Virus record (IMG/VR): IMGVR_UViG_3300005618_000059
Location: 1-22,161 of that record
DNA: 22,161 nt
DNA from: a virus
Strand: one strand, 5' to 3'
The notes under the pieces were generated by a model, which did no database searches, was not told where the DNA came from, and saw nothing but the letters and a program-made list of their open reading frames with translations. A program made the translations under genes and the position numbers. Within the stretch, counting starts at the first letter, position 1; each line of letters begins with the position of its first letter. Positions 4,904-22,151 of the stretch are shown one piece after another.

Positions 4904-6076
4904 ATGACCATCGACGGCTGGCGGGGGCCGACACGTCGGAATGATGCCGAGGTGAGCCTGACCACTACCCCCGCCCGCCGCCGGACCCTCGACAATGCCG
5001 AGCGAATGGCCTTCGTCGACGGATTGCGCGGAATCGCCGCCCTGGTCGTCGCCGTCGGCCACATCATCGGGATGGTCCCACCCGACCATCCCGCGACCAC
5101 GTTCGTGCGCGCGGCCTGGCGGGAGCGCCTGATCTGGCCCTGGCTGTTCGGCGGGCAGGCGGTCTGGCTGTTCATCATGCTGTCCGGCTTCGCCCTGTAC
5201 TGGAGCGAGGAGCGTCGGGTGCTGGCCGGGCGGGGGGCGACGTCGTTGCGGGTCTACGCGGCTCGCCGGTGCTGGCGGATCCTGCCGACCTACTACGTCG
5301 CCCTGGGACTCGGACTGATCGTGATCGCCGGGCTCGGCCCCTACCTGGCTCCGCCGTCGGCCAGCCTGCGGACCTTCGCCCCGGTGACACCCGGCGGGCT
5401 AGCGTCCCACCTCACCCTGATCCACAACCTCGACCCGAGCTGGATCCACCAGATCAACCCGCCGCTGTGGTCGATCGCCGTCGAGGCCCAGCTGTACCTG
5501 CTGTTCCCGGCCCTGGCTTGGGCCGGGATGCGGTGGCGCCCCTACCTGCCCGCTGTCGTGCTGGTGGCGGGCGTGACCGCCCTCGGCATGGTGTCGCCGG
5601 TCCGGCCGGTCGGGTTGGCCGCCTGGTTCGCCGTCGGGGCGGTGCTCGCGCACGTGGCCCGACGCCACACGATGCCCCGTCGCGCTCTGCTTCTGGCTGC
5701 CGGTGCGGCCGGTGCGGCTGGCTGGTACCTGGGTCCGGCCGCCACCGGCCAGTTGGCCCAGGCCGTCTGGCTGGTGGCCTTCGCGGCCCTGCTGCTGGCC
5801 CTGTCCCAGACTCCGGCCGGCCGGTGGAACGGGGCGACGTGGCCGGTATCGACCTGGCTGGGCAAGGTGTCCTACAGCCTGTACGCCGTCCACTTCCCGG
5901 TCGCGTTGCTGGTGTGGGCAGGCGTCGGGCATCTCGGCCTGTCCACACCAGCAGTCGTGCCGGTCATGCTCACCTGCGGCCTGACGGCCTCACTGGCCGG
6001 TGCGTGGGTGTGCTACCGGCTGGTGGAGGCGCCGTCACTGGCCCGGGTCCGGGCTGTTGCGAGGACATCGCAGTAA
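4904..6076 (+). CDS. Membrane acyltransferase, OafA/YrhL-type (acyltransferase 3 family)
   Basis: This 390-residue integral membrane protein is the only plus-strand gene. Family motifs appear in order: FVDGLRGIAALVVAVGH (37-53, with the Arg42 and His53 typical of the first helix), GGQAVWLFIMLSGFALY, RRCWRILPTYYVAL, PLWSIAVEAQLYLLFPAL and LGKVSYSLYAVHFPV. About ten hydrophobic segments follow one another. Such enzymes transfer acetyl or other acyl groups to sugars of cell-wall polymers, glycolipids or capsules. In phages they act as conversion genes that alter the receptor. The ATG at 4904 has no clear ribosome site; a GTG at 4952 is an alternative and keeps all motifs. It sits in reverse orientation inside a baseplate operon, bounded by inverted repeats, which fits a moron. 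The acceptor cannot be read from sequence. Confidence 0.9.
   Translation: MTIDGWRGPTRRNDAEVSLTTTPARRRTLDNAERMAFVDGLRGIAALVVAVGHIIGMVPPDHPATTFVRAAWRERLIWPWLFGGQAVWLFIMLSGFALYWSEERRVLAGRGATSLRVYAARRCWRILPTYYVALGLGLIVIAGLGPYLAPPSASLRTFAPVTPGGLASHLTLIHNLDPSWIHQINPPLWSIAVEAQLYLLFPALAWAGMRWRPYLPAVVLVAGVTALGMVSPVRPVGLAAWFAVGAVLAHVARRHTMPRRALLLAAGAAGAAGWYLGPAATGQLAQAVWLVAFAALLLALSQTPAGRWNGATWPVSTWLGKVSYSLYAVHFPVALLVWAGVGHLGLSTPAVVPVMLTCGLTASLAGAWVCYRLVEAPSLARVRAVARTSQ
6055..6075. repeat. Right copy of the inverted repeat flanking the acyltransferase
   Basis: The reverse complement matches 4859-4879 at the outer eight bases on each side. This copy includes the last codons of the acyltransferase (stop TAA at 6074-6076) and most of the first arm of the convergent hairpin. 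A third related palindrome (TGCGA-N5-TCGCG) forms the hairpin's other arm at about 6090-6104. Confidence 0.6.
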
Positions 6077-17751: not shown

Positions 17752-18480
17752 CTAGTCGACGTCCACGGCAGGCGGGAAATTCAGGTCCGCGGCCGGGCCG
17801 AGCACCTGCAGCGCGACCACGTCGTAGGCGCGCGCCGCGGCTTCTTCCGTCGGGAACCGGCCAGGGCAGTACGCCTTACCGTTGATCCGCAGACGGGCCT
17901 GCCACTTCTCGTTGACCTTGTCCCAGGAGACGCCCCGGTACTTCGACTTCCCGCGGCCGACCGTGTTCCTGGTCGCCTTCACCTCTGCGGCGGTACGCAG
18001 GGGTTCGCCGGGGAAGTTCAGCAGCGCGTAGCTACCCCACGTGGAGAACGCCTTCCAGTCGTAGGCGCGGGCTGCGTCTTCCTCGGACATGAACGTCCCG
18101 AGGTGGTAGGTCGTGTCGTCCGTATGGACTCTGGCCACCCACCGTTGTCCGGGCATGGCGGTGACGCCCTTGAACGCCGACGACGACCCGGGTACGGCCC
18201 CCCGGTTCGCCTGGTTCAGCGAGTTGGTGGCGAGTCGCAGGTTTGACCGGCGGTTGTTGAGGCCGTTCCCGTCGCGGTGGTCGACGGGCGACCCGGCGGG
18301 GGCGGCCATGATGTGCCGGTGTACGAGCACCCACCGTTTCCCGGCGGGGGTTTCCTCTGCGAAGCGGGCGTACAGGACGTTCTTGGTCCGGTGCGTGTAG
18401 AGGCGTCGGCCGGATAGCAGGGGGACATCCTCGTCGTCGATCGTGAGGATGTCCCCCGAGATGGTGCGGAGTTCAGTCAT
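17752..18480 (-). CDS. Free-standing HNH homing endonuclease with two AP2 DNA-binding domains
   Basis: A 242-residue protein. HNH domain about 45-92: WVLVHRHIMAAP...PVDHRDGNGLNNRRSNLRLATNSLNQAN, with the DHxDxNxLxNRxxNLR signature. Two AP2 domains follow, about 102-157 (FKGVTAMPGQRWVARVHTDDTTYHLGTFMSEEDAARAYDWKAF...LNFP) and about 179-236 (YRGVSWDKVNEKWQARLRINGKAYCPGRFPTEEAAARAYDVVAL...LNFP). Such proteins cut a specific site, often in the homologous locus of a phage lacking the gene, so that repair copies the gene across. The ATG at 18480 has a weak ribosome site. It sits between the capsid gene and the next head gene with no intron boundaries seen, so it appears free-standing. Both AP2 copies look intact. 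Confidence 0.93.
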   Translation of the reverse strand: MTELRTISGDILTIDDEDVPLLSGRRLYTHRTKNVLYARFAEETPAGKRWVLVHRHIMAAPAGSPVDHRDGNGLNNRRSNLRLATNSLNQANRGAVPGSSSAFKGVTAMPGQRWVARVHTDDTTYHLGTFMSEEDAARAYDWKAFSTWGSYALLNFPGEPLRTAAEVKATRNTVGRGKSKYRGVSWDKVNEKWQARLRINGKAYCPGRFPTEEAAARAYDVVALQVLGPAADLNFPPAVDVD

Positions 18481-18511: not shown

Positions 18512-19864
18512 TCACGAATGCTGGATCATGATCCCTCGCTTGTACGTAGCGGCGTCGCCGGTGTTCGCGTCCGACGGGACACCGAAGTCGCCGGTCCACG
18601 ACCACGTGGTGTTGATCTTCTGCTGGAGGTTGTCCTGCGCCGGCCGAACGATGATCACCGTGTCGATGCCAGCGGCCACGTTCACCATCGTCACGTTCGG
18701 GACCGTCGCCACACCCGTGCCGTCCAGGAGCTGGCCCTGGCCCTCCAGCGGCGCCGAGATCAGCGACCCCGCACCCATCACCATCGGCCGGTGCACCGTC
18801 AACGTCCCCGCCACACCCGACGCCGCGGTACCGCCGTCAAGGATGGTCGGGGCCTCCACGTTCCGCACCCAGTCGATCCCCAGGAACGTGCCGATCGACA
18901 TGTCCCGGAACACCGCCGAGTCGCCCCGGCCCTGGTACGCCTGCCGGAAATCCGAGTCCGCGAACAGCTGCGCCTCAGTGTCCGGGTCGACGTGCGCGAC
19001 GTAGTTCCCGTTGATCGTCGGGACGTTCATCTTCCGCAGCCGGGCCACCGCGGAACGGAACAGGGACGCCGTCGCGATGTTGCTGGCACCCAGGTCGAAC
19101 GCAGTGTTACCGGTCGGCTGGATCACCACCGGAGCAGTCGCCGCGACCACAGCCTGACCAACAGTCACCGCAGTCGCCGAACCGATCGTCAGGTTCCCCG
19201 CGCCCGACGTGGCCGAGGCACCCGTCACGGTGTTCGCGACACCAGCGATCGTCACCGTCAGCGGGTTACCGGCCGACACGGCGGTCGGGACACCATTCAC
19301 CATCTTGGTGAGGAAGCCCTCCACGTCGTGGACGGCGATCGTGGTACCCGACCCCGCGGTCGTAGTCACCCAGGTCCGGCCACCCTTGTACGCGGTATAC
19401 AGCTTGTTCCGCGCCAACTGGTTGATCGACTGGCCGGCGTTCTTGCCGAGGGTCTTCACGTCCTGGGCGTACTTGCTGGCCAGGGCGGTCAGGTTAGCGA
19501 GCATGTCGGTCTGCACCGTCTGCCCGTATTGATCCATAGACACGCTCCAGCTCTCCAGCGGGTACGTGGCGACGGACGAGTCGGATCCGGTGATCGGGGT
19601 GGTGATGACGGGGAGGAGGCCGGTGCGGGTGCTGGTCCGGGTCGAGCCGAGGCCGGCGGTCCACGGGTCGACGTCCGCGAACGCCGCGTACAGCAGTTCG
19701 GGGAACAGGGCGTCCCGGAAGATCTGCTCCAGGAACCCGTTCTGCAGCATCGGCTGCAGGGCGGCGGGGAGCGCGGACCGGATGTCGTGACGGCGGGGGT
19801 TCGGGAGGAACGGGAGGGTCCGGAGCGACCGCTCGGCGCGGTCCGGAACGGTCAGGACGGACAA
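18512..19864 (-). CDS. Major capsid protein, HK97 fold (P22/N4-gp56-like), probably N-terminally processed
   Basis: A 450-residue protein. Start TTG at 19864, because AGGAG lies 7 bases upstream. Capsid features: TYPLESWSVSMDQYGQTVQTDMLANLTALASKYAQDVKTLGKNAGQSINQLARNKLY (about 100-156, spine-helix region). Later come RLRKMNVPTINGNYVAHVDPDTEAQLFADSDFRQAY (about 276-310) and FRDMSIGTFLGIDWVRNVEAPTI (about 319-341). Between about 165 and 250 lies a beta-rich Thr/Val/Gly insert, possibly a surface I-domain-like insertion. Residues 1-27 share a spaced motif with the scaffold N-terminus (M..LT.P, then L..LPF.P...RHD), suggesting both are cut by the same protease. It follows the Prp-like gene by 3 bases. 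Confidence 0.9.
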   Translation of the reverse strand: MSVLTVPDRAERSLRTLPFLPNPRRHDIRSALPAALQPMLQNGFLEQIFRDALFPELLYAAFADVDPWTAGLGSTRTSTRTGLLPVITTPITGSDSSVATYPLESWSVSMDQYGQTVQTDMLANLTALASKYAQDVKTLGKNAGQSINQLARNKLYTAYKGGRTWVTTTAGSGTTIAVHDVEGFLTKMVNGVPTAVSAGNPLTVTIAGVANTVTGASATSGAGNLTIGSATAVTVGQAVVAATAPVVIQPTGNTAFDLGASNIATASLFRSAVARLRKMNVPTINGNYVAHVDPDTEAQLFADSDFRQAYQGRGDSAVFRDMSIGTFLGIDWVRNVEAPTILDGGTAASGVAGTLTVHRPMVMGAGSLISAPLEGQGQLLDGTGVATVPNVTMVNVAAGIDTVIIVRPAQDNLQQKINTTWSWTGDFGVPSDANTGDAATYKRGIMIQHS

Positions 19865-19867
19865 GGC

Positions 19868-20071
19868 TTACTCCTGTTGTTTGATCTCGACCCGGATGTG
19901 TGCCGGGTCCTGTTGGGCCAGCGCGTTGAGGTACGCGATGGTCAGTTCGGTGGCGACGGACACCGCCGCACATGCGCGGGCGCCGTCAAGGTCGCCGGGT
20001 TCGTCCCGGCCGTGCCCGGTGACCTCGATCAGCGTGTGTCCCGGTGCAAGCCGGGCCGAGATCGTGATCAC
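19868..20071 (-). CDS. Prp-like cysteine protease (ribosomal-processing protease/DUF464 family), candidate capsid maturation protease
   Basis: A 67-residue protein. The GTG at 20071 overlaps the scaffold stop (GTGA), and its end carries the capsid ribosome site. Seen: MITISARL, EVTGHGRDEPGDLDGARACAAVSVATELTIAYLNAL, then HIRVEIKQQE. This matches the Prp pattern: MI.v...., GHa...G.D..CAavS, a long helix, then an 'f.i.' strand. His20 and Cys34 correspond to His22 and Cys34 of Staphylococcus aureus Prp. The His-Cys spacing is 14 rather than 12, and the Asp normally three before the Cys is instead at position 29. It is shorter than bacterial Prp (about 105) and lacks the last helix. Known: host Prp trims ribosomal L27 and the phage 80alpha scaffold and capsid. 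Inferred: this one processes its two neighbours. Confidence 0.6.
   Translation of the reverse strand: MITISARLAPGHTLIEVTGHGRDEPGDLDGARACAAVSVATELTIAYLNALAQQDPAHIRVEIKQQE
19871..19875 (-). promoter_or_regulatory. Ribosome binding site for the capsid gene (TTG start)
   Basis: AGGAG on the minus strand, 7 bases before TTG 19864 and inside the last codons of the Prp-like gene. There is no other start codon at usable spacing, so the capsid starts with the rare TTG. Confidence 0.75.
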
Positions 20072-20883
20072 CCGTAGGCGGGGAGCCCGAGGCGCCGCTT
20101 CTCCGCGGCGAGGGTCTCCGGGTCGTTCCAGTTCGGTGTCGACTGGCCGCCCTTCGATCCCTGCCCGGGGTCGGGTGCGGGGGCCCGCTTCTTCGGCTTC
20201 ACCGGAGCAGCGTCCGGGTCGTCGTCGTCGGGCTTGGTGGGCCGCAGCCAGTGCGGTTTCTTCGCGAGGACATCCGCGACGGCCTTCTCGATCGCGTCGG
20301 TGTCGACGCCGGTGTCGGTGATGAACTCGCCCATGCGGCGTTCGAGGTGTTCCATGACGTCGGTCGGGTCGAGGGCGTTCGCTTCGAGGGCCGCGGTCCG
20401 CAGTTCGGACCGGACGGCCCGTTCGTTCGCGGTCTTCTCCCGCGCTGCGGCAGCGGTCGCGGCGGCCTGCGCACGTTCCAACTCGGTGCGCTGGGAGTCC
20501 TCGAACTCCTGGATCCTGGCTTGGGCGGCGGCGAGTTCCTTCCGGGCCGTCTCGGCGTCCCGGGTGGCCTGCTGCCGTTTCACCCGCTCCGCCTGGATCG
20601 ACTTCCAGCGGGGGTCTTTCGGGTCGACGTCGCCCATCAGGTCCCCGGCCGGCTTCGGTGCCGTCTTCGGGGTGGCCTTCTTGGTGGGGGGTGTCTTCTC
20701 GGCGTCGCCGGTTCCAGTGCCGCCGCCGTCGTCGGTGTCGCCGTCAGCGTCCGAGTCGTCGGCCGTGTCGCCGTCGTCGCCATCAGCGGTGTCGTCGTCG
20801 GGTTCGTCGTGGCGGGACCACGACGGGACGAACGGCAGCCAGTACAGGTCGGGCATCGCGCCCGGTGTCGTCAGGGGAGGCAT
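20068..20883 (-). CDS. Capsid scaffolding protein
   Basis: A 271-residue protein. The N-terminal 26 residues carry the motif shared with the capsid N-terminus (L..LPFVP...RHD). Residues about 26-60 are almost purely acidic/Gly (DD, DGD). A Lys/Pro linker follows (about 62-80), then a coiled coil about 95-165 (QAERVKRQQATRDAETARKELAAAQARIQEFEDSQRTELERAQAAATAAAAREK). The C-terminus is basic (KPKKRAPA...AAEKRRLG), suited to binding the inner capsid surface. Acidic head, long coiled coil and basic tail, with position just before the capsid gene, is the usual scaffold architecture. The ATG at 20883 has ACAAGG at about 5 bases. A second ATG at codon 10 would remove part of the shared motif region. 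Confidence 0.85.
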   Translation of the reverse strand: MPPLTTPGAMPDLYWLPFVPSWSRHDEPDDDTADGDDGDTADDSDADGDTDDGGGTGTGDAEKTPPTKKATPKTAPKPAGDLMGDVDPKDPRWKSIQAERVKRQQATRDAETARKELAAAQARIQEFEDSQRTELERAQAAATAAAAREKTANERAVRSELRTAALEANALDPTDVMEHLERRMGEFITDTGVDTDAIEKAVADVLAKKPHWLRPTKPDDDDPDAAPVKPKKRAPAPDPGQGSKGGQSTPNWNDPETLAAEKRRLGLPAYG

Positions 20884-20999: not shown

Positions 21000-22151
21000 C
21001 TAGGAGGCGCGGAAGAGGGCGTTCAGGGCGGCCGTAGAGGTCGCCGCGTCCCGTTCACGGATCAAGTACCCGAAGTTCAGGAGGGCCGTTTCCCGGTCCT
21101 CCCGGGACGCGTGGTCCCGCATGATCTGCGCGACCGTCGGTCGGCCCGGCACCCGGAACTGGCCTTGCACGAGTTCCGTTCCGCCCGCCGGGTTACGCCG
21201 CTGGTACGGCAGGCCACGGGACATGAGGGGCCCGTACTTCGCTGCCGCCGCAGCGGACGCCGCGCGGGACACCGTGAAGTTCGTGTACCGGGCCTGGGGT
21301 GTCCCGGCGGCCTGGTCGATGCGGGCCTGCAGCATCCGTGCACCGCCGACACTGCGGCGGGTGGTGCCCGCCGTCGTGTAGGACCGGCCACCAGCGACGT
21401 ACATGCCCTGTTTCGCGTTCACGACCTGGGAAATGTCCGCGCCGTGGTCGAGGGCTTCCCGTTCCGCCTTCGTGAGGTCCGTGATGCGGCCCTGCCGGTA
21501 CAGGTCGATCGGTGAGGGGATGTCCGCGAGGCCCACGACGGCGACCGGGAGACACACGCAGGAGCATCGGGGGTGGCGTTCGAACGCCCGGACCTTGTAG
21601 ATGCGGCCCGACAGGAGCGCGCACCGGGAACAGCAGCGTGCCCCCACGACCCGGACATACCGTTGGGCGTGGTGGGCGACCATCGATGCCTGCACCGACA
21701 AGGTGCCCGCATCGGGCATCTCCGTCGCCGCGTACATGCGTAGCGCCGCCTCACCGGCCCGCAACGCGTCCCCAGGTGCCATCCCCGCAGCGACAGCGGC
21801 GTCAGCGCGGGCCGCGGGGATCGCGAGGAGAGTGTCCAGGCCGATCCCCGACGCCCCGTCCCCCGCGAACGCCGCCGCATCCACGGCCACGCCGGCTGCT
21901 GCGGGTGTAGCGCCTTGAGCGGTGAGGGTGCGGGCCACGTACCCGTCGGCCATGCCCGCGACCGCCGACTGCCCGGCCGTGAACGCACCGACCGCTTCGG
22001 GGAGCCGCCGCGCCCACCCGGGGCCGATACCGGCGGCGTCCAGTTCCCGCCACAGCATCGCCAGGACCGCCGACACCCGGCCCGTGACCGTCGCCGTCGC
22101 CGCCCGGTAGGCGACGGCCGCGTCGACCGCTGCCTGGGTTTCGTCGGACAC
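21000..22151 (-). CDS. MuF-like minor head protein with zinc-type Cys cluster
   Basis: A 383-residue protein. The N-terminal 150 residues are Ala-rich and helical. The core is VVGARCCSRCALLSGRIYKVRAFERHPRCSCVCLPV (about 168-203), with Cys173, Cys174 and Cys177, then His193, Cys196, Cys198 and Cys200. This is the 'CxxC...RHxxCxC' cluster of capsid-minor/MuF-like (VG-like) proteins that bind the portal or capsid interior and may be ejected with DNA. The later part has QVVNAKQGMYVAGGRSYTTAGTTRR and QAAGTPQARYTNFTV, typical of the family. GTG at 22151 has GGGG in the last ten bases of the window, so the start appears complete. The portal gene would be expected just beyond the right edge. Confidence 0.85.
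   Translation of the reverse strand: MSDETQAAVDAAVAYRAATATVTGRVSAVLAMLWRELDAAGIGPGWARRLPEAVGAFTAGQSAVAGMADGYVARTLTAQGATPAAAGVAVDAAAFAGDGASGIGLDTLLAIPAARADAAVAAGMAPGDALRAGEAALRMYAATEMPDAGTLSVQASMVAHHAQRYVRVVGARCCSRCALLSGRIYKVRAFERHPRCSCVCLPVAVVGLADIPSPIDLYRQGRITDLTKAEREALDHGADISQVVNAKQGMYVAGGRSYTTAGTTRRSVGGARMLQARIDQAAGTPQARYTNFTVSRAASAAAAAKYGPLMSRGLPYQRRNPAGGTELVQGQFRVPGRPTVAQIMRDHASREDRETALLNFGYLIRERDAATSTAALNALFRAS

Follow-up and report, generated by a model that had tools for sequence, protein, structure and literature searches.

A very small cysteine protease of the Prp type, encoded by a phage and co-translated between its own presumed substrates, very probably trims both the scaffold protein and the major capsid protein (MCP) by removing an N-terminal tag after an Arg-His pair. 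The analysis centres on a window (the whole analysed stretch of DNA, 22,161 bases long and filed as a virus record) from a phage of soil actinobacteria; its tail sheath and tail tube genes mark this phage as contractile-tailed. The original prediction, made from the letters of this window, was that a small phage-borne Prp trims scaffold and capsid; judged from sequence comparison, it is well supported by the conservation of the catalytic residues, a fixed gene order, paired tags on the two proteins and the joint absence of tag and Prp from sister phages.

The gene (‘mini-Prp’) runs on the minus strand, an orientation that the original prediction did not give, from a GTG start at 20071 to 19868, and encodes 67 residues: VITISARLAPGHTLIEVTGHGRDEPGDLDGARACAAVSVATELTIAYLNALAQQDPAHIRVEIKQQE. 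The gene, its predicted catalytic codons and its immediate neighbours are the following.

20068..20883, minus strand: scaffold protein, 271 aa, with a predicted propeptide at residues 1-25 (PF06810, E=6e-8; phrog_4708, E=2e-9)
19868..20071, minus strand: predicted mini-Prp cysteine protease, 67 aa, GTG start (open reading frame; PF04327, E=5e-4; 61-member family, all matching PF04327)
20012..20014, minus strand: His20 codon, corresponding to His22 of Staphylococcus aureus Prp (SaPrp); invariant in 61/61
19970..19972, minus strand: Cys34 codon, corresponding to SaPrp Cys34, the predicted nucleophile; invariant in 61/61
19958..19960, minus strand: Ser38 codon, corresponding to SaPrp Ser38; invariant in 61/61
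19871..19875, minus strand: AGGAG ribosome-binding site of the MCP gene, lying within the last codons of the protease gene (from the sequence)
18512..19864, minus strand: MCP, 450 aa, TTG start, with a predicted propeptide at residues 1-26 (phrog_1357, E=4e-23; capsid alignment)

The stop codon of the scaffold gene and the start of mini-Prp overlap by 4 nucleotides (GTGA), and the mini-Prp stop codon (TAA) is followed by GCC and then by the TTG start of the capsid gene, an arrangement that bears out the proposed translational coupling of the small reading frame to both neighbours. In pairwise comparisons of close relatives, changes at third codon positions outnumber those at first or second positions by a factor of 2.4-2.8, which places the frame under protein-level selection; this bias, together with the existence of a 61-member family, rules out a chance or antisense reading frame. 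A near-twin contig, 98.8% identical across 8.4 kb, has three differences in the mini-Prp gene, two of which are synonymous.

Taken alone, the window protein would be judged a borderline Prp: it matches the Pfam profile PF04327 (Peptidase_Prp) with 20.7 bits (the curated cut-off is 27) over positions 11-57 of 90, and phrog_4478 (‘peptidase’) at E=2.6e-5. The family as a whole is not borderline. Scans in which six members served as queries turned up 66 viral loci and 15 contigs of actinobacteria (Streptomyces, Streptosporangiaceae, Catenulispora, Glycomyces and Sphaerimonospora); the sequences come from phage contigs, prophages of Actinomycetota and phage Kromp. All 61 distinct homologues match PF04327 at E<=0.01 (the best at 8e-10), Kromp gp6 reaching 29.6 bits and so exceeding the cut-off. 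The relation to PF04327 on which the original prediction had been made to depend is therefore present, and the His and Cys motifs that it had read in the 67-residue product are in place, Gly19, His20, Cys34 and Ser38 being invariant in 61/61 distinct sequences. Cys34 would act as the nucleophile with His20, Ser38 being supporting; both catalysis and its timing we infer. All complete copies measure 62-67 aa, and no member has a full-length Prp domain (about 90-110 aa), so that a family with the Prp profile match and the catalytic core (Gly-His and Cys-x-x-x-Ser) is nevertheless classed as a Prp variant and not as an ordinary Prp. A weak PF04327 match in Actinomycetota (locus L093) was discarded; it is located in an unrelated stretch.

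The same small size bears upon the fold. The family profile matches the solved Prps (2g0i, 4peo/7kld and 1s12; best E=2e-4), and in each of the three a second, weaker alignment sets mini-Prp residues ~36-61 upon the last ~24 residues of Prp. Each of these C-terminal alignments is weak taken singly, but that all three structures align separately by their N-terminal half and by their C-terminus favours an internal deletion, and makes a simple C-terminal truncation less likely. Mini-Prp is thus likely, on these alignments, to be a Prp that has lost the central part of its domain and whose two helices have merged, the Cys helix continuing directly into what would be the C-terminal portion of helix 2 and then the final strand; such a merger would probably require a dimer. 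The ‘shortened copy’ of the original prediction accordingly holds as regards length, although what has been lost seems to be an internal segment, with the end of the C-terminal helix and a strand retained. An AF2 monomer (pLDDT 89.5) consists of a beta-hairpin followed by a single 27-residue helix, with an unpaired C-terminal stretch that would fit a dimer. A structural comparison with SaPrp had been proposed; neither Foldseek nor VIA retrieved a solved Prp from the PDB with this monomer, a result that is uninformative at such small size. The top structural match in BFVD (probability 1.00, TM 0.66/0.72) is A0A6J5LQL6, a ‘Cysteine protease Prp’ of an uncultured Caudovirales phage, which is similarly small (61 aa) but has 24% identity and an E-value of only 0.01.

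The second line of evidence lies in the presumed substrates. Scaffold and MCP are unrelated proteins, yet in mini-Prp phages their N-termini have a common motif, F-x-[LI]-x-R-H↓[D/A] (the arrow marks a predicted or known cut), as in Kromp (GWFQLTRHDD in the scaffold, SWFRLDRHDI in the MCP), in locus L002 (HWFDLARHDE and PWFDLARHDV) and in the scaffold of locus L025 (LFNLARFDD). Among non-redundant loci, F.[LI].R[HF] is found in the N-terminus of 55/57 scaffolds and 52/53 MCPs; the exceptions look like a contig that starts within the scaffold gene, a mis-picked frame and one substitution of Tyr for Phe. Elsewhere in the same proteins the motif occurs in none of 8,550 scaffold and 20,075 MCP background residues, and among the plausible genes of the Kromp genome it was not found outside scaffold and MCP. 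A prophage that was located later (L260), and was not used to define the motif, also obeys the rule. The corresponding tags of the window phage are as follows.

20806..20838, minus strand: predicted scaffold cleavage tag LPFVPSWSRH↓D, residues 16-26 (aligns with the MCP N-terminus; F-x-L-x-RH motif of relatives)
19784..19816, minus strand: predicted MCP cleavage tag LPFLPNPRRH↓D, residues 17-27 (alignment with the scaffold; absent from 80/80 phiKX1-like sister MCPs)

These two tags have diverged from the family motif, which tells against cleavage in this phage, and yet are alike, with two extra residues between Phe and Arg-His in both presumed substrates. The N-termini of the window scaffold and MCP (MPPLTTPG-AMPDLYWLPFVPSWSRHD and MSVLTVPDRAERSLRTLPFLPNPRRHD) align along their entire length with a score of 46, which was reached by 1/5000 shuffles and belongs to the best-scoring segment pair between the two proteins. 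The resemblance of scaffold residues 1-26 (20883-20806) to MCP residues 1-27 (19864-19784) extends through the whole propeptide, beyond the tag, as if one had been copied from the other. Most relatives have a loop between His and Cys that is 4 residues shorter than that of the window protein (residues 21-30, 20011-19982). Kromp has a loop of family-typical length and the tag WFxLxRH↓D, whereas the window phage has the longer loop together with tags that are 2 residues longer, which suggests, in this one lineage, a co-variation of protease and tag.

A cut after Arg-His (RH↓D) in both tags would remove about 25-26 residues from each protein of the window phage. The predicted register, F(P6)-x-L(P4)-x(P3)-R(P2)-H(P1)↓D/A(P1'), coincides with the position at which SaPrp cuts in staphylococcal phage 80alpha (FNLQFF↓A and LNLQHF↓A), where the tags are KFNLQFF↓A on the scaffold and KLNLQHF↓A on the capsid protein (PMC9405229, PMC5744158). 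In the staphylococcal enzyme, Asp31 and Gly29 keep the substrate's P3 Gln in place, Phe42 stacks on the P1-P2 Phe-Phe pair, and a D31A mutant is inactive (PMC9405229). In mini-Prp, position 31 is Gly in 60/61 sequences and Ala in the other, so that an aspartate essential to SaPrp has been lost family-wide, which tells against proteolysis, and position 42 is Gln in 58, His in 2 and Glu in 1. The 45 non-redundant scaffold/MCP pairs vary at P3 and all have Arg at P2, a residue contained in the motif by which they were selected. The changes at positions 31 and 42 of the enzyme thus go together with the loss of P3 Gln and P2 Phe from its presumed substrates. P1' is often Asp, which is larger than the Ala or Ser of known Prp sites and counts against cutting at RH↓D.

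The loss of Asp31, and of half of the Prp domain, would also be expected of a Prp-fold protein that is not proteolytic, and that instead serves assembly, as a chaperone or adaptor which couples scaffold and capsid by binding their shared tags. A role in tag binding is made plausible by 80alpha itself, which can do without cleavage but not without an intact scaffold N-terminus (PMC5744158). The invariance of Gly19, His20, Cys34 and Ser38 in 61/61 sequences is, however, hard to explain without catalysis, and the end of the tag coincides exactly with the start of untagged sister capsids; a purely tag-binding protein is accordingly considered unlikely.

Those sister capsids serve as a natural control. 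At capsid loci of the Kromp type mini-Prp is present in 77/78, the remaining contig ending just upstream, while 80/80 loci of the phiKX1 type have neither mini-Prp (in the fetched flanks) nor motif nor N-terminal extension, although both counts are of loci related by descent and do not represent independent events. The sister capsids begin MAIANFPASLQ, which aligns with the residues after the predicted cut (DVRSTLPAAIQ), and cutting at RH↓D would therefore give an MCP equal in length to the untagged sisters. A very unlikely alternative is that the Prp homology is incidental, the tag being either the target of some unrelated host protease or an uncut signal that only directs assembly. A co-assembly role has indeed been proposed for the 80alpha tags (PMC5744158), and the MCP motif could also be retained for such a role; against this stand the absence of the tag from 80/80 Prp-less sister loci, the fit of its register to the known Prp site, and the full-length Prps of other phages (described below) that accompany LQxFA-type tags on scaffold and capsid.

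Trimming by mini-Prp also has to be weighed against the possibility that another phage protein matures the head. The original prediction held that no head protease of the ClpP, U9 or U35 type was visible between MuF and capsid, and this stands: none was found in the Pfam or PHROGs matches of the intervening genes, and the gene order on the coding strand leaves room only for scaffold and mini-Prp. It is complicated by the MuF gene itself: the PHROG that its product matches is called ‘head maturation protease’, though the product showed no protease domain.

21000..22151, minus strand: MuF-like minor head protein, upstream of the scaffold (phrog_1522, E=1e-44; conserved C..C and HPRCDC; 33/35 homologues match PF25310)

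On the strength of that name, and of the annotation of Kromp gp4 as ‘capsid maturation protease’, the MuF-like protein might be held responsible for maturation and the small reading frame be merely accessory. Its conserved residues, however, are those of the MuF cysteine motif; it contains no Pfam protease domain, and 33/35 homologues match the VG15 family (PF25310); structure comparison, limited to the folds listed, gave no protease fold or clear relative; and the tag tracks mini-Prp. The name may merely reflect a convention of genome annotation, and this reading is extremely unlikely. The PHROG 1522 members in this analysis resemble MuF minor head proteins, and the label of this PHROG may mislead annotation. 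Two other genes of the window may be recorded: an HNH endonuclease with AP2 DNA-binding domains (17752-18480, minus strand), homing-endonuclease-like and situated in the head operon downstream of the capsid gene, and an O-acetyltransferase of the O-antigen acetylase type (4904-6076, plus strand; phrog_3333, E=2e-33), which lies within an otherwise minus-strand tail module, looks like inserted cargo, and may modify the host surface.

The hosts provide a reason for a phage to carry such an enzyme. Across 396 Actinomycetota genomes, PF04327 was matched above its cut-off in one alone, the seed genome, by way of its prophage; the other 395 gave no such match, as had been expected of actinobacteria in the original prediction. 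Its further claim, that actinobacterial L27 normally has no N-terminal extension, agrees with five carrier genomes, in which L27 begins MAHKKG and so has no cleavable extension, a feature also absent from some bacteria that do bear Prp (PMC9405229). With neither Prp nor a long L27 in its host, the phage would need its own enzyme. The mini-Prp locus is carried by 4/298 Streptomycetaceae genomes.

The closest known system is S. aureus Prp (PF04327; PDB 4PEO, 7KLD), which trims gp46 and gp47 of 80alpha as well as L27. Mini-Prp resembles it in the Gly-His...Cys-Ala-x-x-Ser core, in a profile match in two parts at both ends of the protein, in having scaffold and MCP as (presumed) substrates with an N-terminal tag common to both, and in the F-x-L-x-x-[F/H] spacing ahead of the scissile bond. 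It differs in size (62-67 aa with a mid-domain deletion, as opposed to 106 aa), in the replacement of Asp31 and Phe42, in a substrate P2-P1 of Arg-His instead of Phe-Phe or His-Phe, and in being encoded by the phage between its own substrates with no L27 role in these hosts, whereas the 80alpha protease is supplied by the host. The SaPrp sequence used as query is presumably correct, agreeing with the PDB alignments and with a 100% match in a Staphylococcus phage record (OR844993), which may contain host sequence.

The claim that this would be a ‘distinct maturation system’ has to be qualified. Gp6 of Streptomyces phage Kromp (MH744420, AYD81607), an orthologue of 62 aa in the matching slot with 39% identity by tblastn, is already called ‘protease’, if by annotation only; and Latilactobacillus phage TMW 1.1447 P1 and Dorea phage DO134P1 likewise have a Prp near scaffold and capsid genes whose products carry LQxFA-type tags (MKLQLFA/MNLQHFA and MANLQLFA, respectively). 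These Firmicute phage Prps differ from mini-Prp in being full-length (about 95-105 aa), in keeping Asp31, in a P3 Gln, and in an operon position near the portal or upstream of the scaffold. Their genes (L090 5001-5315 in the Latilactobacillus phage, L091 4001-4285 in the Dorea phage) belong to head modules and are unannotated or ‘hypothetical’, and phage-borne Prp may be commoner than the literature implies; in open-access papers, nothing was found on phage-encoded Prp or Kromp gp6. Phage-borne Prps and the ‘protease’ annotation of the mini-Prp family were already in public data.

Capsid trimming by Prp has hitherto been known as a service rendered by the host to staphylococcal phages. A minimal, phage-borne Prp in hosts that have none would allow the purpose of trimming to be separated from the essential function in L27: with no host L27 role, the mini-Prp gene could be mutated without harm to the host. 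The family would also supply a roughly 62-aa protease that is predicted to recognise 7 residues (FxLxRH↓D), and a set of natural relatives in which a joint change of specificity in a protease and two unrelated substrates could be followed. More tentatively, and with somewhat less than even confidence, it may represent a self-contained capsid-maturation system particular to phages of Prp-less actinobacteria, in which a partner subunit, possibly domain-swapped, completes one of the smallest proteases known, and in which specificity has changed from LQFF↓A to LxRH↓D along with the tags.
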